DNA from: an uncultured Verrucomicrobia subdivision 3 bacterium
GTDB taxonomy: Bacteria > Verrucomicrobiota > Verrucomicrobiia > Limisphaerales > UBA11358
Assembly (NCBI GenBank): GCA_903944085.1
Contig: CAJAQO010000213.1
Span: forward strand, 1 to 59,667
DNA: 59,667 nucleotides
Direction of reading: 5' to 3'
The notes under the pieces are model-generated. The model had not been told where the DNA came from, did not search any database, and saw only the letters and a program-made list of their open reading frames with translations. Of this stretch, positions 3,170-50,600 are shown one piece after another. Each line of letters begins with the position of its first letter. The stretch's first letter is position 1. The translations under genes were made by a program, and so were the position numbers.

Positions 3170-5407
3170 TTATTTTGTCGCGGCCGCCGCGTTGGTGCCG
3201 GCCGGGCTTGCCGCTGGCGCGGGCGCCAGCACGGGGTTGTGTTTCAATTCAAAGAAAGTTTCATGCTCAAAATAAGTGTCGTGCTTCAAGCCTTTCGGCA
3301 GGTGTGAGTCCAATCCGCCGTTGAGCCATTTGAAAGCGACATAGACGACCACGGCCACGACGATGACTTTCGGCCACGGACTTTTCTTCTCGGCAAACGG
3401 ATCGGTGAGATCGCGCTGCGAACCTGGCGGCAACGTGGCGATGGCCGTCAGGCTGGTGCCGAGCGGCACGTTGATTTTCGCCTTGGAATTCACCGCCCAG
3501 CCGTTGGCGTCGAGGATCGGGCCAAGGTTCCGTTTGCGGAGTTTGATGAAAGCTAGAATCATCGAAGGTCCAGAAATCATGGCCATCACGCCTAAAAACG
3601 CGCCGACCATGGCCAGTGGACCCATCATGACCACCCCGACCACATGGCCAAAAATCAAACCGACAAAAGTGCCAACGGACCCGAACGCCACGCCCAACGC
3701 CGCCACGGTGCCCACGTCAATTTTTTGGGACGCACTGTTATTTGCCGCGAGCGTCGCGGCGTTGGCGAGTTTGTCCGTCGCATCGGCATCGGCGGCGGCG
3801 GCGCGCTTGCTGATCTGCTCCTCGATGAAGCGGACGAATTTTTTGTAAGGCGCCCAGAACGCCTGCCGGATGCTGATCGGGCTGGCGATGATTTTCGTGA
3901 TGGTCGCATCAAAGTCGCGGCCCTTGCGGTCGTAAAAAATGCCGTTGCGGCCGACCATCAAATTGTCATCGTCGCCCTGCGAGAAAATGGCGAGGATGCT
4001 CAACTTTTCGCCGGTGGCTTTGCGCACACAATCCACATACGCGAGATACGCACCGGCGAGACCGGCCATCACCGCGTGTTTGCCGGCATCCTCGACGGTG
4101 AGGCACAAATCGCAGCTGCGCTGATCGAGGAACAATCTTCCGGCCTGGAAAATCGCCGGCGTTTTGCGGCTGTAAAAATTTTTGAAGCTGACGAAATTGA
4201 CGCACAGCGTGTAAAGATCGCGGTTGAAGCGGATCAGTTTTTCCACCGCGGCAATCGCGTTGGCTTCCGGCTCCAGCGCCTTGTCCTGGGCGATGAGCGC
4301 ATCAATTTTCACTTTCGCGTCGCCGGCGAGAATTTCGCGCACGCGTTTCAAGCCGAGTTTTTCCACCGTCGCGCCAACCTTGCTGGTGGCCCAAGTTTCA
4401 AACGGCGCGAGCTTGGTGTTCAACAAATTCCAATCCGCTTCGGTGATAGAATTCTTATCGCCGAGCAGCGGCTTGACGGCGGTGGCTTGCAACGTCGCGA
4501 GCGCCGACGCCCACGCGGGATTCACGCCGTCCACCAGCGGCAGCGCCTTGCCGGCGGCGATTTGCGCCAGCGGGAAGCTGGCAATTTCAGCGGAGTTCAC
4601 GGTCAAATCTTTGGTCGCCAGCGTGACGAATTCGGACTCCTGCCGGTTCAACGCGGCCGCTGCGCGCGCGTCAAAGGCGGCGAACCGGCAGCGCGCAAAA
4701 AAATCCTCCGCTTTCACTTTCACCGCTTTCACGGCGGCGGCGGCGGCGGCGGTGGCTTCGCCGAGCGGCAGAATGTTTTTGTCGCCCTCGGCTTGTTTCC
4801 ACCAGTCGGAATGCGCCTGCGCCTCGGCGAAAAACGTGTCAGCCTTCGCCTGGCCGATGCCGGGCTTGCCGCTGCGGTCGGTCTCGATGCCGAGGCAGGC
4901 CATGATGTCGGCGAGGACGGCTTTCGTCGCGTCATCGCTTGCGGCGTCGGCGGGAATGATGCCGTCGCCGTTGAAATTGGTGGCGGCGAAAATTTTCGCG
5001 GTGTCCGCCGTGTCTTCCAGGTCAATCGCCGTGGTGTCCGCCTTGCCGAGATTGGCGAGAATCTGTCTGGCCGAAGCGAGAATTTGTTTTCCCTCGGTCG
5101 TCGCGTCGTTGATGGCGGTGAGCGGCAGCGTCGGCGAACCTTTCAGCAGGTCATCGGGATTTTTGAGCTGGCTGGTCGCCCATTTCGCGGCGGCCACAAC
5201 TTCCGGCACGCGCACGCGGCCGTCTTTGTCCGAATCAATCAAGTCGAGCGTGCGGCTGTCGAACTCCAGCCCGCGCGTCGGGCAGGCGAGCGCCACCCAG
5301 AGCTTCTGATCAAGCTGGTCAAGGTTGGCCAAGTCGGCGCCGGATTCCAGTTTGACCTGGTCAAAGCCGCCGGCGCGAAAAAATTTCCATGTGTGATTGG
5401 TCGCCAT
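3170..5407 (-). CDS. Large EF-hand-containing membrane protein of unknown function
   Basis: The 745-residue protein matches no family I can name. Residues 58-69 form a canonical EF-hand loop (Asp58, Asp60, Asp62, Gly63, Glu69), and a second, imperfect loop (NFNGDG) lies at about 144-149, so calcium binding is likely. The middle is rich in Ala and Lys and includes a poly-Ala run. A CxxC pair (SCDLC) lies near residue 430. Hydrophobic segments at about 575-635 suggest two or three membrane helices. Another lies near 683-700, before a short Ala/Pro-rich tail. There is no signal peptide, so the long N-terminal part is probably cytoplasmic. It is a single-gene unit with its own terminator. Confidence 0.75.
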   Translation of the reverse strand: MATNHTWKFFRAGGFDQVKLESGADLANLDQLDQKLWVALACPTRGLEFDSRTLDLIDSDKDGRVRVPEVVAAAKWATSQLKNPDDLLKGSPTLPLTAINDATTEGKQILASARQILANLGKADTTAIDLEDTADTAKIFAATNFNGDGIIPADAASDDATKAVLADIMACLGIETDRSGKPGIGQAKADTFFAEAQAHSDWWKQAEGDKNILPLGEATAAAAAAVKAVKVKAEDFFARCRFAAFDARAAAALNRQESEFVTLATKDLTVNSAEIASFPLAQIAAGKALPLVDGVNPAWASALATLQATAVKPLLGDKNSITEADWNLLNTKLAPFETWATSKVGATVEKLGLKRVREILAGDAKVKIDALIAQDKALEPEANAIAAVEKLIRFNRDLYTLCVNFVSFKNFYSRKTPAIFQAGRLFLDQRSCDLCLTVEDAGKHAVMAGLAGAYLAYVDCVRKATGEKLSILAIFSQGDDDNLMVGRNGIFYDRKGRDFDATITKIIASPISIRQAFWAPYKKFVRFIEEQISKRAAAADADATDKLANAATLAANNSASQKIDVGTVAALGVAFGSVGTFVGLIFGHVVGVVMMGPLAMVGAFLGVMAMISGPSMILAFIKLRKRNLGPILDANGWAVNSKAKINVPLGTSLTAIATLPPGSQRDLTDPFAEKKSPWPKVIVVAVVVYVAFKWLNGGLDSHLPKGLKHDTYFEHETFFELKHNPVLAPAPAASPAGTNAAAATK

Positions 5408-14493: not shown

Positions 14494-14994
14494 ATGCCAC
14501 TGCCCGCTGTCTCTGGAACCATCACCGATAAAAACCTGCAAGCCGTCAAGGACGCGCTCGCCGCCATTGAGGCCGCCCTGCCTTTGCTCGCCATCAGCCT
14601 GACCGACGCCGACCGCCGGGGCTCCCGCACCACCGGCGAGGGCCGGCTGCCGTTTGTGTTGGATGCGGCGGAGATTGCGGAGGACAATCCGAATATTCTG
14701 CCCCAGGCGTTTGATACCGACGGCTTTGAAGCCACCGTGGCGCTGTTCAATGGACTGACGCAAGTCCTGACCTTGCTGGATCAGACGCGCCAAAAAGTGG
14801 ACGACACCCGGCTGGCGGCGGGCGTGCAGGCCATGACTGGCGCTTCGGGCGTGTATCATTACGCGCAGGACGCCGTCAAAACCACGCCCGGCATCAAGCC
14901 GATTGTGGATCGCATGGGCCAGCAATTCCAAGCCGCGACCGCCACCCGGCAGGCCAACCGCAAGGCCAAAAAGGCCCAAGCTGACGGCAAATAG
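14494..14994 (+). CDS. Conserved-looking hypothetical protein, 166 aa
   Basis: The protein is soluble and largely helical, with no signal peptide, membrane segment or motif I recognise. It starts MPLPAVSGTITDKN and has a basic Lys/Arg-rich end (ANRKAKKAQADGK). Codon use matches the genome, and the frame is followed by a strong hairpin, both of which support a real gene. The helical heptads and basic tail suggest a structural or nucleic-acid-associated role, but this is a guess. Confidence 0.6.
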   Translation: MPLPAVSGTITDKNLQAVKDALAAIEAALPLLAISLTDADRRGSRTTGEGRLPFVLDAAEIAEDNPNILPQAFDTDGFEATVALFNGLTQVLTLLDQTRQKVDDTRLAAGVQAMTGASGVYHYAQDAVKTTPGIKPIVDRMGQQFQAATATRQANRKAKKAQADGK

Positions 14995-15020: not shown

Positions 15021-15051
15021 CCGCCCGTTTTCGGACAACGAAAACGGGCGG
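15021..15051 (+). terminator. Hairpin after the 166-aa hypothetical gene
   Basis: Perfect 13-bp arms (CCGCCCGTTTTCG / CGAAAACGGGCGG) enclose a five-base loop, 26 bases after the stop codon. There is no proper T-run, only TCTGGCTTTGG, so termination efficiency is uncertain. Confidence 0.65.
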
Positions 15052-15085: not shown

Positions 15086-15133
15086 CATGCTTATCCCGTT
15101 GTTTGCGAACCTCGGCGCAACTCGGTTTTTTGG

Positions 15134-15273
15134 AAATAGCCCAGCGCTTGAGCGCTGGGAACCCGGCACCGCGCAAGACCAAGTCCCGAACGGGACGGCA
15201 GAACCTGCTTTCGTCCCGCCGGGACTTGGATCTTTGTGGCGACGAAACCCAGCACTGAAGTGCTGGGCTATTT
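15134..15273. repeat. REP-like element made of nested palindromes
   Basis: The outer pair is a palindrome at 15140-15159 (CCCAGCGCTTGAGCGCTGGG, one base short of full symmetry at the edges) and one at 15248-15267 (CCCAGCACTGAAGTGCTGGG). These are inverted copies of each other, flanked by AAATAGCCC and GGGCTATTT. Inside lies a second inverted pair, GTCCCGAACGGGAC (15183-15196) and GTCCCGCCGGGAC (15213-15225), flanked by CCAA and TTGG. The whole looks like a mobile REP-doublet (BIME-like). No transposase is present in the window. Confidence 0.85.
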
Positions 15274-15362
15274 TCAAAATGGCGCGGGGCAAGCGACCGG
15301 ATAAGTTCGTGGCGGTTCTTGTCCAACTGATTGAAAATGATCTGCTTGCAAGCAATATCTTC

Positions 15363-15782
15363 GTCGCCCGGAGCTGCGAGGACGTAGCCAAAGGCTACGA
15401 GCACGTAGAGAATTGCTACGAGCACGTAGAAAAATGGTGCGTGCATGTAGAAAAATGGTGCGTGCACGTAGCAAATTGCTACGTGCATGTAGTCAAAGGC
15501 TACGAGCTCGTAGCCCGGAGCTACGAGGACGCAGCCAAGGACTACGTCCATGTAGCCCGGTGGAACCAGCTCGTAGCCCGGAGCTACGTCCATGTAGCTC
15601 GTAGCCACCAGCTCGTAGCCCGGCAGAACGAGCCGGTAGCTTTGGCGAACGTGCTCGTGGCAAAATGCCACGCAGTCGTGGTGCGGAGGCATGTGCGCGC
15701 TGTCCGGGACAACGAACTGGCTTCCCCCAAGCACAAGCTTGAAGCCGGGAACAACCGGCGCGTGGAAAAATGGAACGGGCAC
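15363..15782. repeat. Array of about 20 units with exact 21-bp period (GTAGC type)
   Basis: Starting at 15363, twenty successive 21-bp units can be laid out without a gap. Most begin GTAGC or GTAG and contain GCTACG about ten bases later, so units carry dyads of the form GTAGC-n5-GCTAC and CTACG-n4-CGTAG. Towards the right end the sequence drifts, but several dyads are kept by paired changes (for example GTGGC-n5-GCCAC at 15657-15671). Because 21 is a multiple of three, several frames on both strands stay open and encode heptad-like peptides. I treat those frames as by-products rather than genes. Confidence 0.88.
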
Positions 15783-15872
15783 GGAGTCAACCATTGCCGC
15801 GTCGCCGTCCGGCAGAGCAGGGGGGCGGACCGGATTTGCCGCCACCCACCGGGAGACGCGAATTTTACGGGT

Positions 15873-16700
15873 TCAAAACGGCAGCCGGGCGTAAAGCTGG
15901 TTCAACCCGCGTCCCGCCAGTTCGGCGACGAAAAACAAAATGGCCAGCGCCAGCAGCGGCGCAAAATCCACCTTGCCGAGCCGCAGCGGAATTTTATTCA
16001 GCGGCCGTAGCAGCGTCTGCGCCGTGGCGCTAACGTATTTCCAGAACGGATGTTTGCCGAAATAAATATAGCTGTTCAGCAGGTGCAGCAGCAGGAGCGC
16101 GCCGAGCGGAAATTTCCACAGCAGATAGCTGTCCGCCGCGATGACGAGGGACTGTTGGAAGCGATACGCGGGAGAAGCCGGCGGCAGGATTTGCAGTCGG
16201 CCCAGCAGCCAGCTTACCAGCCACCACAAAATCGCCGTGACGAAGAACGGCAGCAGGAGTTTGGCCCAGCGCGGCCAATCGTCCACGCGGCCCAGCGGAA
16301 TTTTCACCAGCCCGTGCATCGGCTGCGGGCCGGCCAGCAGCGAGAGCGGCAGCAGGCACGAATAAAAAATCCCCATCATCAGGCTGAAACTGAAAAACGA
16401 AAAAACCAGGATGCGCGCAAACCAGTCGCTGCGGAAGGACAGCACCACGACGCCCATATCAATTTTGCCCGTCCAATTGGCCGCCGAACCGAGCGACCAG
16501 TAGATCACCGCGCGCAGCAGCAGCAGCCCGGCGAGGAAAACCAGCAGATGCCAGCGGCGGAATTTTTTCGGCGCCGCCGGCCGCAACGTGCCCATGAGCG
16601 TCGCGGGCAGCCGTTTTGCGAGCGGATCAAAACGGTCGGAACGCCAGTTCAGCCACAGCAGCAAACCGGCGAGGTTCAGAATGAAATCAACGATGGCCAT
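15873..16700 (-). CDS. YggT-like multi-pass membrane protein
   Basis: The protein of about 275 residues has several hydrophobic helices in two blocks. The C-terminal block (LLLLHLLNSYIYFG, then LLRPLNKIPLRLGKVDFAPLLALAI) follows the YggT repeat pattern of a helix, a Pro-rich loop ending in 'DF.P', then a helix; the N-terminal half may hold a diverged copy. The start is the ATG at 16700; the 14 codons upstream are part of a heptamer repeat. YggT proteins are linked to osmotic tolerance and cell-division or membrane biogenesis, but no role can be assigned here. It lies downstream of sucD. Confidence 0.7.
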   Translation of the reverse strand: MAIVDFILNLAGLLLWLNWRSDRFDPLAKRLPATLMGTLRPAAPKKFRRWHLLVFLAGLLLLRAVIYWSLGSAANWTGKIDMGVVVLSFRSDWFARILVFSFFSFSLMMGIFYSCLLPLSLLAGPQPMHGLVKIPLGRVDDWPRWAKLLLPFFVTAILWWLVSWLLGRLQILPPASPAYRFQQSLVIAADSYLLWKFPLGALLLLHLLNSYIYFGKHPFWKYVSATAQTLLRPLNKIPLRLGKVDFAPLLALAILFFVAELAGRGLNQLYARLPF

Positions 16701-16705
16701 GGGAC

Positions 16706-16789
16706 GTGAGGCGTGAGGTGTGAGGCGTGAAAAATGAGTCACGCGCGCAGAGCCGTTTCACGCATCACTCATCACGCCGCACGACTCAC
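16706..16789. repeat. Inverted pair of 28-bp heptamer repeats between sucD and the YggT-like gene
   Basis: The left arm 16706-16733 is four 7-bp units (GTGAGGC, GTGAGGT, GTGAGGC, GTGAAAA). The right arm 16759-16786 is CACGCAT, CACTCAT, CACGCCG, CACGACT, the approximate reverse complement, preceded by GTTT. The stop codon of sucD (16786-16788) straddles the end of the right arm. The pair could form a hairpin in the transcript. Confidence 0.8.
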
Positions 16790-28075: not shown

Positions 28076-28173
28076 ATTCAAGCATAAGCCGCGCTTCCGT
28101 GGATTCGCGTTCGTAGAGAGCGTGGGCAAATCCTAAGTTGAAAAACTTCGACCCCATTGGAGGTGTCATCCAT

Positions 28174-28404
28174 CCCCATTTTCCGGGTCAACTTCCCCAA
28201 TTGGGGCTTGGCTCTCCCCACTTTCCGCGTGACGCTCCCCAATTCCGAAACCATTTTCCCCAATTTTTCTGCTGCACTCCCCATTTTCCCGATGGCTCTC
28301 CCCAATTTTTTCAGGTTTTTCCCCCTTGACTGAGGAGCGTTCCCCAATTTTTTTGTCGTTTTCCCCAATTTCCGAACAGCTCTCCCCATTTTCTCTGGCC
28401 TTGA
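28174..28404. repeat. Array of 11 units with exact 21-bp period (CCCC type)
   Basis: CCCC blocks begin at 28174, 28195, 28216, 28237, 28258, 28279, 28300, 28321, 28342, 28363 and 28384, exactly 21 bases apart. On the minus strand each unit reads GGGGA, a variable middle, then an A-rich end such as GAAAATT. The region lies between the convergent SNF2 and Wzz-like genes. Frames on the minus strand encode heptad-like repeats (for example KIGENGF, KLGKMVS) and are probably not genes. The phasing of A-tracts with two helical turns suggests a bent or protein-bound segment. Confidence 0.9.
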
Positions 28405-28489: not shown

Positions 28490-28508
28490 GGTCAAAAAAA
28501 GACAGTTC
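28490..28508 (+). repeat. 19-bp motif shared with the first repeat island (copy 2)
   Basis: GGTCAAAAAAAGACAGTTC matches 15067-15085 at 18 of 19 positions. It lies between the 21-bp array and the 3' end of the Wzz-like gene. Relative to its array it is in the opposite orientation to copy 1. Confidence 0.7.
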
Positions 28509-30151: not shown

Positions 30152-30790
30152 TCACTTCAGCCGGTTTCTGAATTCCGCGCAGGCTTGAGCCACATCCGGC
30201 GCGTTGAGGATGGCGGAGACGACGCAGATTCTTTTTGCGCCGGCGGCCAGCACGTCGTCCAGCGTTTGCAAATTGATTCCCCCGATGGCGAACCACGGCC
30301 CGATCACATTCGCCGCCGCCCAGCGGACATAATCCAGCGTCACCGGCTTCGCCGTCGGCTTGGTGCCGGTCGCGAATACCGGCCCGATGGCAATGTAATC
30401 TGCGCCCGCTGCCACCGCTCGCTGCGCCTGGGCGGAAGCGTGCGTGGACAAGCCGATCCGCAATCCGCAATCCGCAATCCGTAATTCCGAAACGTGCGTG
30501 TGGCCGGCGTCGAAAAAATCCTCCTGGCCGAGATGGCAAAAATCCGCGCCGATTTCGCGGGCGATTTCCAAATGGTCATTGATGACCAGGCCGACGTTTG
30601 CGCGGCGGGTGACGGGCAAAAGTTTTTCCGCGAGGCGGCGGATGTCATCGGGCGAAGCGGTTTTGGCGCGAAGCTGGATCAAATCGCTGCCGCCGTCGCA
30701 AAGCTGTTGCGCAATCAGTTCGGGCGCGCGGCCGTGCAGGTAAGCCGTGTCCACAAAAGTATAAAGCCGGCAGTCGGCGAGCGGTTTCAT
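30152..30790 (-). CDS. thiE: Thiamine-phosphate synthase
   Basis: The 212-residue TIM barrel joins the thiazole phosphate and HMP pyrophosphate to make thiamine monophosphate. Family blocks in order: QLRAKTASPDD, VINDHLEIA, DFCHLGQED, GLSTHA, DYIAIGPVFATGTK, FAIGGIN. Between the QED and GLSTH blocks lies SELRIADCGLRI, encoded by four 7-bp units (30456-30483). Other ThiE proteins have a loop here, so this looks like a tolerated in-frame insertion. It is downstream of PFK but separated by a terminator. No TPP riboswitch is visible. Confidence 0.93.
   Translation of the reverse strand: MKPLADCRLYTFVDTAYLHGRAPELIAQQLCDGGSDLIQLRAKTASPDDIRRLAEKLLPVTRRANVGLVINDHLEIAREIGADFCHLGQEDFFDAGHTHVSELRIADCGLRIGLSTHASAQAQRAVAAGADYIAIGPVFATGTKPTAKPVTLDYVRWAAANVIGPWFAIGGINLQTLDDVLAAGAKRICVVSAILNAPDVAQACAEFRNRLK
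30456..30483. repeat. 28-bp heptamer repeat inside thiE
   Basis: Three copies of ATCCGCA and one of ATCCGTA lie in perfect tandem and are read in frame by thiE. The array resembles the single arrays at 33293 and 50341 in size and arrangement but has a different unit. Confidence 0.9.
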
Positions 30791-32864: not shown

Positions 32865-34730
32865 ATGTGCGGCATCATTGGATACGTCGGAAAAAAAACA
32901 GCCTCGCCCATCTTGCTGGAGGGTTTGCGGCGGCTGGAATATCGCGGCTACGACAGCGCGGGCGTGGCCGTGCTGCGCGACGCGAGCCTGCTCGTGCGCA
33001 AAAAGAAAGGCAAAATTGACGAGGGGCTGGCGCGCGTTTTAAAAGCGGAACCCGTCGCCGGCTGTCTGGGCATCGGGCACACGCGCTGGGCCACGCACGG
33101 CGTGCCGGCTGACGAAAATTCGCACCCGCACCTTGATGCCGGCGGCAAAATCGCCGTCGTCCACAACGGCGTCATTGAAAATTACGACGCGCTCAAACAG
33201 CGACTGCTCCGCGCCGGGCATAAATTTCTTTCCAACACCGACACGGAAGTGCTCGCGCATTTGATCGGCGAACACTACCGGCAAAACAAAAACGGAAAGC
33301 GGAAAGCGGAAAGCGGAAACGAGCTGACGCAGGCCGTTTGCGATGCGTTGCGCGAAGTCATCGGCACCTATGGACTCGCGGTGATCTGCACGGACTTTCC
33401 GAACACGATTGTCGGCGCGCGGCGCGGTTCGCCGCTCATCATCGGCATCGGGCAGGAAGAAAATTTTCTTGCCAGCGACGCCAACGCCATCGTCGCCCAC
33501 ACAAAAAAAGTGGTTTATCTGAACGACTACGACGTGGCCACCATCACGCCGGAACGCTTCGATGTTTTGAATCTCGGGACCGACACGGCCAATGTGCAAA
33601 TCAGCAATCTGGAATTTTCCCAGGAGGACGCGGCGCGCGGCAGGCACGCGCACTTCATGCTCAAGGAAATTTATGAGCAGCCGCAAACCGTCTTGAACGC
33701 GCTGCGCGGACGCCTCGACTTTGAAGGCGCGACGTCGAAGTTCGGCGGTTTGAATATGACCGCGGCCGAGCTGCGCGGCATTGACCGCATCGTCATTGCC
33801 GCGAGCGGCACGAGCTGGCACGCGGCGCTTGTCGGTGAATATTTGATCGAGGAACTCGCGCAACTGCCGGTCGAGGTGGAGTTCGCGCATGAATTTTGTT
33901 ACCGCAATTGTCCGCTCGAAAAAAACACCGTGCTGCTGGTCTTGTCGCAATCCGGCGAAACCGCCGACACGCTCGCTGCGTTGCGCGAGGCCAAGCGGCG
34001 CGGTCATCGCGCGCTGGCCATCGTCAACGTCGTCGGCAGCACCATCGCGCGCGAGTCGGACGGCGGCATTTACATGCACGCCGGGCCGGAAATTGGCGTC
34101 GCCTCGACGAAGGCGTTCGTTTCCACGATCACGATTCTGACGCTGCTCGCGATTCATCTGGGCCGGATGCGCCAGCTTTCGGCGAACCGCGCGAAGGAGA
34201 TTCTGCGCGGACTGGAAGCGCTGCCAAAACAGATTGAATCCATTCTGGCGCAGAATAATTCGCTGAAAAAAATCGCGAAAAAGTATGCGCGAGCCGATGA
34301 TTTCTTTTTTCTCGGCCGCGGCTACACCTTTCCCATTGCGCTGGAAGGCGCGCTGAAGCTCAAGGAAATTTCCTATATCCACGCCGAAGGCTATTCGGCG
34401 GCGGAGATGAAACATGGGCCGATTGCGCTGATTGACGAAAAAACACCGACGGTCTTTCTCGTGCCGCAGGACGCGATGTATGACAAGACAATGGCGAATC
34501 TCGCCATGATCCGCGCCCGCAAAGGCCCGATTATCGCGTTCGCCACCGAGGGCGACAAAGCCATCAAGAAAGTAGCGAATGACGTGATTTACCTGCCGAA
34601 GACGCTCGACTTGCTGAATCCGATACTGGCGAGCGTGCCGCTGCAACTGTTCGCGTATCACATCGCCGTGGCCCGTGGTTGTGATGTGGACAAGCCGCGC
34701 AATTTGGCCAAGAGCGTCACGGTGGAATAG
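32865..34730 (+). CDS. glmS: Glutamine-fructose-6-phosphate aminotransferase (isomerising)
   Basis: The protein of 621 residues makes glucosamine 6-phosphate, the first step to UDP-GlcNAc for peptidoglycan and LPS. It starts MCGIIGYVG, with Cys2 as the glutaminase nucleophile after Met removal; the longer upstream frame is therefore wrong. Two SIS domains follow (SGTSWHAALVGEY; LSQSGETADTLAALR) and the C-terminus ends KSVTVE as in the family. It is about ten residues longer than usual because of a segment (NGKRKAESGNE) encoded by a heptamer repeat at 33293-33320. There is no obvious glmS ribozyme in the short upstream region. Confidence 0.96.
   Translation: MCGIIGYVGKKTASPILLEGLRRLEYRGYDSAGVAVLRDASLLVRKKKGKIDEGLARVLKAEPVAGCLGIGHTRWATHGVPADENSHPHLDAGGKIAVVHNGVIENYDALKQRLLRAGHKFLSNTDTEVLAHLIGEHYRQNKNGKRKAESGNELTQAVCDALREVIGTYGLAVICTDFPNTIVGARRGSPLIIGIGQEENFLASDANAIVAHTKKVVYLNDYDVATITPERFDVLNLGTDTANVQISNLEFSQEDAARGRHAHFMLKEIYEQPQTVLNALRGRLDFEGATSKFGGLNMTAAELRGIDRIVIAASGTSWHAALVGEYLIEELAQLPVEVEFAHEFCYRNCPLEKNTVLLVLSQSGETADTLAALREAKRRGHRALAIVNVVGSTIARESDGGIYMHAGPEIGVASTKAFVSTITILTLLAIHLGRMRQLSANRAKEILRGLEALPKQIESILAQNNSLKKIAKKYARADDFFFLGRGYTFPIALEGALKLKEISYIHAEGYSAAEMKHGPIALIDEKTPTVFLVPQDAMYDKTMANLAMIRARKGPIIAFATEGDKAIKKVANDVIYLPKTLDLLNPILASVPLQLFAYHIAVARGCDVDKPRNLAKSVTVE
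33293..33320. repeat. 28-bp heptamer repeat inside glmS
   Basis: Three copies of CGGAAAG and one of CGGAAAC lie in perfect tandem, in frame, within the glutaminase domain. It has the same size and layout as the arrays in thiE and in the DUF5107 gene. Confidence 0.9.
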
Positions 34731-47658: not shown

Positions 47659-50600
47659 AACTTCATCACGGCCAGAAAATCCGCCGCCAGTGCATGATTT
47701 GGATCACGTCGGAGCACGTCAGCGAGCAAGGATTTTGCACGCGCCAACTGGCCGAGTCCGCACCTTGCCTGCGCTGCCAGCAATCGCGCGGTCGTTTCCT
47801 GACGAAATTGCAGGTCGTCGTCAAACAGCAGCAGCGTCGGCAGCGACGTGGCAAAATAATCAATCTTGGCTGCGGACTTTTGCAGCTTTTGCGCATGCGC
47901 CAGCAAATCCCGGAACATTTTTTTGGCCTTCGACTTCTGGCCGATTTTTTCCAGCGCCAGCGCGGAGTAATAAGTCATTTCTGACAATGCGCGGACGCTC
48001 ATCTCCTGAAAATCACCTTTAAACTCCGCCGCCGCCCGCCAATGATCAACAGCCATTTTTTTTTCACCGCTCAATTCCAGTGCCACTCCAAGCCAGTAAT
48101 GAATGTCGCTCTGGTTGGCGAGCAGGTGCTTGGCCTCGCCGAGATTCAAAGGCGATTTCAGCGCGCTCCGAAAATGTGCCAGCGCCACGTCCAGTAGCTG
48201 CCTTTTTTGCAGCGCAGCTTTGCCGAGCGTCAGATGCGATCGCACCCATTGGCCGAGCGGGCCGCCTTCGCCGCCTTCCCACGGTTGGAAGTTGCGCGCA
48301 CTAATCAAGGCCAGCGCCTCCGCCGCCTGGCCGGTTTGGTTGTAGAGCGCTGCGAGTTCCACGCTCAAGTCATCGCGCTGTGCCACCAAATGTGGACGCG
48401 TTTCAAATTCGACCAGCCTTTTTGAAGGTTTTTCGCCAAGCCGCTTCCACAGTTGGTCGCGCTCGAACAGCAGCCGCGCGTCATCCGGGCCGGCCTTGAG
48501 CGCTTGGTCATAGGCGGCTCGTGCCCGCCCCGGTTTTTTGAAGACGTTGAAATAGCCGATCCCCAGATTGCGCCAGACGATGGAAAAATGCGGATCCAAT
48601 TTTGCGGATTTTTCCCAAAGCCGGATGGCCTCCGTGTGCCGCCGCCGGTCGTAAAAAAGATTACCGAGATAATACGGAGCTTTCGCGTCGCGGGCGTCCA
48701 GCCGCATCGCCGATTCAAGGATGGCAATCTCTTCCAGTCGCGCGGGGAAACAATAATCTGGCGCAATGGCTGCAGCCGTTCGGAAATTCGCTTTGGCCGA
48801 CTTGATGTCGCCAATTTTTTCATACAACCAGCCGATGGTGTAAAATTGCAACGGCTCCGCGCCCCAACTTTGAGTCGGCAATTGGCTAATGGCAGCTTCA
48901 CGGATAGAACTGGGAACTCCCGCAAGGAGTAATTCAATCGCCTCACTGAAAAATCCGGCGCGGGCATAATCGTGTGCGACATCCAGGGTGGTTTGCGTAT
49001 CGCAGCCTAATTTGCGGCCATCGAGATGACGCGCCCACCAATCCAGTGGATCCAAAGTCAGCGTCTCGCGCAGGACAGCAGCGGCTTCAGCCGCCATTTT
49101 CTGCGACTGACTCGACGATCCTTCGGTGCTGCTCATTTTTCGCAGCACGATCACCTTTAAATTTCTAGCGCGGAGATTGTCCGTGTTGAAACGAAGCGAA
49201 TGGTTCAAATGCTCCAAAGCAGTTGGCCAGTCCTCCCGGCAGCAATCCATTTCCGCGAGTGCATGAAAAGCCGCCGCCACCCACGCCTGACTCCAAGTCG
49301 CCTTGTAGAATGCCGCGTAAGCCTCGGTGAACCGCGCGCCGGATGTTTCAAATTTGCCGCCGGCAGAGGTGTTCATCTGGAGCCGCAGACAAAGGCCGAG
49401 ATTGTAATAGGCTTCGCTGTCGGCGGGATTCGCATTGCGCCGTGTCAGCCGTTCAATCGCCTGACGGAAATATTTTTCCGCCACGACAAACTCGCCACGC
49501 TTGAGGTGCCAGAGGCCGAGTGCGTTGTTGCAGCGCGAATCCAGCGGGTCGCGCCGTAACGCCTCGCGCCAGTAGAGCGTGGGACAACGCGTGGCATGGC
49601 GATACTGATCGAGATGCAAACCGGTGATGAAAAGTTCGTCGGTGCTGGAAATGTTTTTCGGGGCGAGCGGCTCGGTCGCCGGCGGTGGAACCGCGCCTTG
49701 AATGCGCGACTTTGGTTGATAGCGAATGATTTCAATTCCTGCGGAATCGGCGAAGTTTAAGCTCAACTCAGTTTCAACAATTCCATGCGGCAACAAAATT
49801 TCGGTGACGAACGGTTGGTTAGGAGAAAGATTCAGCCTGCGGCTGAATATCTTTTTCCCTTTGGCGGCCAGTTGAATGGTGGCAGCAGAAAAATACCGGG
49901 TGACGGAAATGCCCAACCGGCATTTCGCACCGGCATTTTTCAAGGTGACCGCCGCCTGCGCGTTCGCGTGCTGTGCCGGGCCGATTTGTTGGATGGGATA
50001 CCAATACTGGCTCCAAGTTTTGGTTTCGCCGGGCTGAAGAAAACTGAAATCCGGCTGGTTGTCGGTGTAAACGCCGGCCATGATTTCGATGTAAGGCGCA
50101 AACTCGCCGCCCGCGTCGGCGTCGGTCAGATTGCGATCCCACGCATAGCCGAATTCTTGGTTGCCCCAGGTCCATTGTTTTTTGCCGGGTGAAATGTGAT
50201 GGTTCGCGACGTGGACGATTCCCGCCTGCGCCTTGTAATCGTAGCCGCCGAAGAAATCTTCCTGGCTGCCCATGCACATGTAGGACGTGGGCACGGGGAT
50301 GTTCGCGTAAAAACTCAAATCATTCGCCACGTAGCTCGGTAATTTTGAATTTTGAATTTTGAATTTTGAATTATTGCAGTGCGGCGGCACGAACTGGCTT
50401 GAGATTTCGTTTTGCGGAATGCCATTTCGTCCGCGTTCGCCGTAGTTCACGCCGTAGTAAAAACCTTTCGCCAGCGGATACTCGCTCATCGAACGCCGCG
50501 CGTGGTCGGCCACATAATAAACGTCCGGCGGGAAGAAACTTTGATACGCCTCATGCACGCGCGTGGCGACGTTGGCCCACCATAAAAACGTCTGCACATA

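Follow-up and report, generated by a model that had tools for sequence, protein, structure and literature searches.

What is a gap-free row of about twenty 21-bp units doing between two genes of a Verrucomicrobiota chromosome, and does it act as coding sequence, as RNA or as DNA? The window, i.e., the whole stretch of 59,667 nucleotides analyzed here, is a contig (C213) of a Limisphaerales-like source genome. In it, the array lies between an orphan gene, referred to as A, on the plus strand and a gene for a YggT-like membrane protein on the opposite strand (15873-16742). The features of this locus are as follows:

14494-14994, plus strand: orphan gene A, 166 aa, product predicted to be all-alpha with a basic C-terminal tail
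15021-15051, plus strand: terminator-like hairpin, CCGCCCGTTTTC-n7-GAAAACGGGCGG, directly 3' of the A stop codon
15067-15086, plus strand: conserved motif GGTCAAAAAGAGACAGTTCC, between gene A and the array
15279-16010, plus strand: open frame through the array from an ATG at 15279 (a longer ORF starts at 15087), judged to be no gene
15363-15782, no strand: 21-bp array of about 20 units with the consensus GTAGCCCGGAGCTACGAGCAC, its phase traceable over 441 bp

A previous, sequence-only reading had described about 20 gap-free units of 21 bp in which dyads are maintained, and both points proved accurate. Base autocorrelation over 15363-15782 reaches 0.60, 0.59 and 0.56 at lags 21, 42 and 63, respectively, versus 0.16-0.34 at all remaining lags tested. 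Cyclic profile alignment keeps 441 bp in phase with 149 mismatches to the consensus (34%) and no indel, and the phase thus extends slightly past the limits first given to the array. In the consensus unit, 8 of the 10 circular reverse-complement pairs match (P = 0.013 versus permuted consensus), while the profile-based score of reverse-complement symmetry gives z = 5.4 and P = 0.0025. The unit cited as having diverged without losing its symmetry, GTGGC-AAAAT-GCCAC at 15657-15671, is correct in sequence. The further proposal that symmetry is kept by paired changes between units holds in part: it is weakly supported in the window array, where 84 of 140 cells are paired versus 74.1 expected (P = 0.006; P = 0.13 when the hairpin is taken across the other axis), but not over 26 arrays, whose pooled test for compensatory change between units is null (Stouffer z of 0.9 and 1.3). 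Decisive support for the maintenance of dyads comes from other loci, where arrays of unrelated units are likewise dyad-symmetric.

Occurrence of similar arrays in other genomes, an expectation of the same reading, was strongly confirmed. Sampling of 615 kb of the source genome yielded 11 lag-21 arrays, compared to 0-2 arrays at lags other than 21 and its multiples 42 and 63, and 455 kb of genome G414, chosen in part for the B genes described below, yielded 20, compared to 0-7 at other lags (42 and 63 aside); these lag-21 counts include some 7-bp or coding repeats, e.g., at L168, L194, and L160. The density in these two genomes extrapolates, roughly, to 100 arrays per genome. A genome of the same genus has 2 lag-21 arrays in 185 kb, and three other genomes, two of which carry gene A, have none at the census cut-off in 138-166 kb each. 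When 320 genomes of the order were searched at the DNA level with the window array, a single 33-bp match (L016) was found outside the source genome, and a protein-level search reached arrays with other units within the same class. The source genome itself contains a second array of the window unit type, on contig C38, without gene A nearby. At L009, a diverged repeat of a carbonic anhydrase gene start, about 820 bp upstream, flanks the solo array (2611-2660 and 3430-3479, minus strand), possibly as an insertion footprint. The window also holds an array of another type:

28141-28400, minus strand: second 21-bp array, more decayed, with another unit type (core AAATTGGGGA)

This unit type occurs at five places in the source genome, namely this one and contigs C307, C57, C63, and C200, and two of these places also carry a further orphan gene, D. 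Within a genome, the same unit type can thereby recur at both gene-linked and solo arrays. Of note, the window additionally contains short 7-bp tandem repeats at 30456-30485, 33289-33319, and 50341-50372 (ATCCGCA, AAAGCGG, and AATTTTG, respectively).

Symmetry across arrays was assessed against permuted columns of the unit profile, with mirror symmetry as a control. Reverse-complement symmetry is significant (P < 0.05) in 21 of 26, 15 of 18, and 17 of 26 arrays of three sets (Fisher 4e-28, 3e-20, and 3e-20), versus 0, 2, and 0 for mirror symmetry in the same sets; since the sets partly overlap and kinship makes some arrays non-independent, these combined P values are too strong; overlap and kinship have less influence on the contrast between the two symmetries. 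About a third of the sampled arrays have no significant symmetry. Pairing is distributed over all ten unit pairs (0.39-0.62), and no general 7-bp or 10.5-bp substructure was found over 43 arrays. The period stays at 21 among arrays of unrelated sequence. Indels are nearly lacking in B-type and most sampled arrays, although these differ from their consensus by 14-35%; A-type arrays show some, mostly of 1 bp, and the indels that separate related arrays are mainly whole units (21 or 84 bp). When related arrays are compared, paired positions are mostly less changed than unpaired ones, which is partly a consensus effect, and in close pairs such as L106/L108 and L099/L105 the array is at least as conserved as the adjacent gene.

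These data bear on the idea that the arrays are a by-product of an amplification process whose 21-bp ruler favors palindromic seeds, and that they then drift without function. Unrelated units, quick turnover, abundance and patchy distribution would all follow from such a process, and solo intergenic arrays do exist. However, the finding that 1-bp indels are almost absent where mismatches number in the hundreds (B and sampled arrays), the conservation observed in such close pairs, and the strong link to gene A described below make this origin improbable.

The open frame through the window array raises the possibility of a protein product made of 7-residue repeats. The ORF across the array is 307 aa long, the two GTAGC-type arrays share their open frame, and among B arrays the sense frame is open in 15 of 16 (10.0 expected), with 26 sense stops versus 44.7 expected and no deficit on the opposite strand. 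Against this, substitutions between related arrays are spread over the three codon phases (19:19:23 and 29:42:34, compared to 24:14:2 and 55:13:4 in the adjacent gene), third positions not being the most variable, the sense frame is not open in 11 of 26 arrays, and the indels of A arrays, mostly 1 bp, do not suit a coding reading. Codon usage in the window frame is also poor (-0.19 per codon versus +0.57 for control genes). On these four grounds (codon phase, stops, indels, codon usage) coding heptads were rejected and are very unlikely, with the sense-stop deficit of the B arrays remaining; the window frame is judged non-coding, in agreement with the initial view that the array is not a clear gene. 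A single weak PHROG hit of the array ORF (E = 9e-5), in a family without known function, is attributed to repeat similarity. At L019, an array of 21-bp period (1453-2136) runs through an open frame of 509 codons on the opposite strand that has many 7-residue repeats, and this array may truly be coding.

The neighbor of the window array on its gene A side is an orphan: no match was found in Pfam, NCBIfam, PHROGs, or PADLOC and nothing convincing in the PDB, A is absent from the phage, plasmid, and viral-contig collections searched, and the structure model of its product, all-alpha, is of low confidence. A profile search with A detected the gene in 16 of 286 genomes of the class. A 21-bp array (lag-21 score of at least 0.55, within 700 bp) lies downstream of 18 of 32 A genes, while the same criterion selects 2 of 33 upstream regions and 6 of 586 random 700-bp stretches (1%). 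Units mostly differ from one array locus to the next; those of the window, L053, L054, and L009 look alike by eye. Hairpins with T tracts resembling the one at 15021-15051 occur 3' of A in several relatives; the window hairpin was missed by a terminator scan that requires a stronger T tract. Near versions of motif GGTCAAAAAGAGACAGTTCC are found at L009, L053, and L055, and at position 28490 of the window. Gene A and the array also have between them an imperfect, REP-like inverted repeat (15135-15274, about 140 bp, AAATAGCCCAGCGC ... GTGCTGGGCTATTTT), which seems to split the motif from the array. The YggT-like gene on the other side was rejected as a partner, an array being found in 0 of 58 YggT flanks of relatives.

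Three other orphan families accompany such arrays. Family B (about 220 aa) belongs to another genus, with up to 12 copies per genome and an array upstream of most copies fetched; it is absent from the plasmid and viral-contig collections searched, and it has no PADLOC match and a sole NCBIfam match far below threshold. Family C (MPFDPTKP...) follows the array at several A loci, and the gene for family D (236 aa) begins about 150 bp from an array in the source genome; overall, 30-150 bp separate an array from the B or D gene downstream of it. Units are similar where B proteins are 89-97% identical and can be unrelated at 81-85% identity. Unrelated units next to B proteins that are still 85% identical count against B as the reader of the array, and a sequence-reading role for B is thus disfavored. 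In genus g174 (L090-L109), short tandem repeats of 8 bp, e.g., (CGCGCTCA)n, stand ahead of many arrays, and a common leader is found upstream of arrays, around TAATTTCCCGGC...TTTTACCC...TTCATTCCCCAT.

The association of arrays with several orphan genes may reflect mobile cassettes, in which orphan gene and array are copied together inside a genome, a solo array being either a relic or a copy of the array alone. Gene-linked and solo arrays with the same unit, the presence of array-bearing B copies at as many as 12 places, the leader and 8-bp repeats common to many arrays of one genus, and the carbonic anhydrase repeat around the C38 array are all consistent with this. Mobility is nonetheless rather unlikely, if somewhat less so than drift without function: no transposase, defined ends or empty site has been shown, A is absent from the phage, plasmid, and viral-contig collections searched and B from the latter two, and copying would leave period and symmetry unexplained.

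More weight is given to the possibility that the array works as RNA, either as a row of short hairpins or as one long self-complementary stem, which would lie in the 5' leader of B- and D-type genes or form a separate RNA after A, and which would be bound by an RNA-binding protein or affect stability or translation. The position of arrays shortly upstream of B and D genes fits such a role, and a sequence that changes while structure is kept is typical of RNA. The window array folds far better than shuffled sequences on both strands (z of about -11), as any dyad array would, and 8 of 10 two-sided changes between related arrays keep pairing (about 4 two-sided expected, the pairs being non-independent). 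In contrast, unit-by-unit covariation is not seen over the 26 arrays, G-U pairs are not preferred (G-T and A-C mismatches amount to 110:111 in A-type arrays and to 59 versus 92 in B arrays), hairpins do not require an exact 21-bp phase, a terminator-like hairpin lies between A and the array, and the array has no Rfam match. An RNA role is thus considered unlikely, albeit the most serious of the alternatives. The initial suggestion of selection either for hairpins or for binding of a dimeric protein is supported in part, in that dyads are maintained; given the lack of paired changes over all arrays and of a G-T preference in the A-type, the data do not demonstrate selection for RNA hairpins in individual units.

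The reading that we favor, with a probability of roughly 0.4, is that the arrays constitute a DNA-level platform for a putative two-fold-symmetric protein on one face of the helix. As 21 bp correspond to two helix turns, an array would act, as double-stranded DNA, as a phased row of half-sites on one helix face, to which such a protein would bind cooperatively. Arrays would gain or lose whole units and become homogenized, so that their sequence would be free to drift provided that phase and symmetry are kept. The arrays do contain dyad-symmetric sites in helical phase, as sites for a symmetric protein should be. The equality of G-T and A-C mismatches in A-type arrays indicates no strand preference and, together with the exact phase and the absence of unit covariation, favors a function as double-stranded DNA. 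The link to gene A (18/32 versus 6/586), the basic tail of its product, and the unit common to gene-linked and solo arrays are also counted in favor of the platform, as are the constant period of unrelated arrays, the scarcity of indels other than whole units, the reverse-complement symmetry, the lack of codon-phase bias, and the lower change at paired positions. Counted against it are the lack of a 10.5-bp substructure, the 1-bp indels of A-type arrays, the third of sampled arrays that are not significantly symmetric, and the excess of A-C over G-T mismatches in B arrays. Moreover, units within one genome are mostly unrelated and one sequence-specific protein therefore cannot read all arrays; candidate readers would be the product of the neighboring orphan gene or a nucleoid protein that reads shape.

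Taken together, the arrays form a class of elements, mostly intergenic and many of them beside small orphan genes, in which the period is fixed at 21 bp and the unit is usually dyad-symmetric but free to change in sequence; they are non-coding where tested, and their link to gene A is shown. That this is a new class of chromosomal element, present in dozens per genome, with geometry under selection, sequence left free and quickly replaced, and a coupling to orphan proteins in possibly mutually distinct protein-array pairs, is given a little less than an even chance. If functional, the arrays would represent an overlooked class of non-coding element and a clear case of selection on DNA geometry rather than on sequence. 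Because the unit families share no sequence, homology searches do not join them, and a census is feasible by scanning for period and symmetry alone; the linked families A, B, C, and D provide a handle on function.

As the first reading had anticipated, no named element of this form was found in the searchable literature, no description of such arrays turned up in the open-access papers searched, and none of the repeat classes found accommodates an element whose length and symmetry are constant while its sequence is not. PARCELs are likewise tandem repeats with dyad-symmetric DNA, but they code for protein repeats of 25 residues (75 bp) that share a conserved motif (PMC2996958), whereas the present arrays have a 21-bp period, show no codon-phase bias and are judged non-coding. 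REP elements (GTAG- or CGTC-tagged), intergenic palindromic repeats that are reported in Verrucomicrobia, come as scattered singletons or dimers of a single conserved palindrome of 20-40 bp (PMC3733652). The window unit contains GTAG and is an intergenic palindrome too, and the source genome has six Y1_Tnp matches, as expected for RAYT-type transposases, none of them beside the window array; the present arrays differ from REPs in being tandem, with 21-bp units unrelated between arrays. A leader-like sequence ahead of a regular array, as seen in one genus, recalls CRISPR, which was rejected, as it had been at the outset, since the units are contiguous, diverge, and leave no spacers. Type III toxin-antitoxin loci also place a tandem array directly ahead of a small gene, as for B and D; their repeat units are few and of about 34-48 nt, while the units here are many and of 21 bp, and neither A nor B matches a PADLOC model, with no ToxN-type toxin found beside the array. 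Finally, operator, iteron, and partition-site arrays of symmetric DNA-binding proteins likewise consist of palindromic sites that recur in helical phase close to genes, such as the ARG boxes of ArgR, 18-bp palindromes spaced by about 21 bp, or the met boxes of MetJ. Those arrays comprise few units of conserved sequence, whereas the ones described here have 6-28 units whose sequence varies by array.
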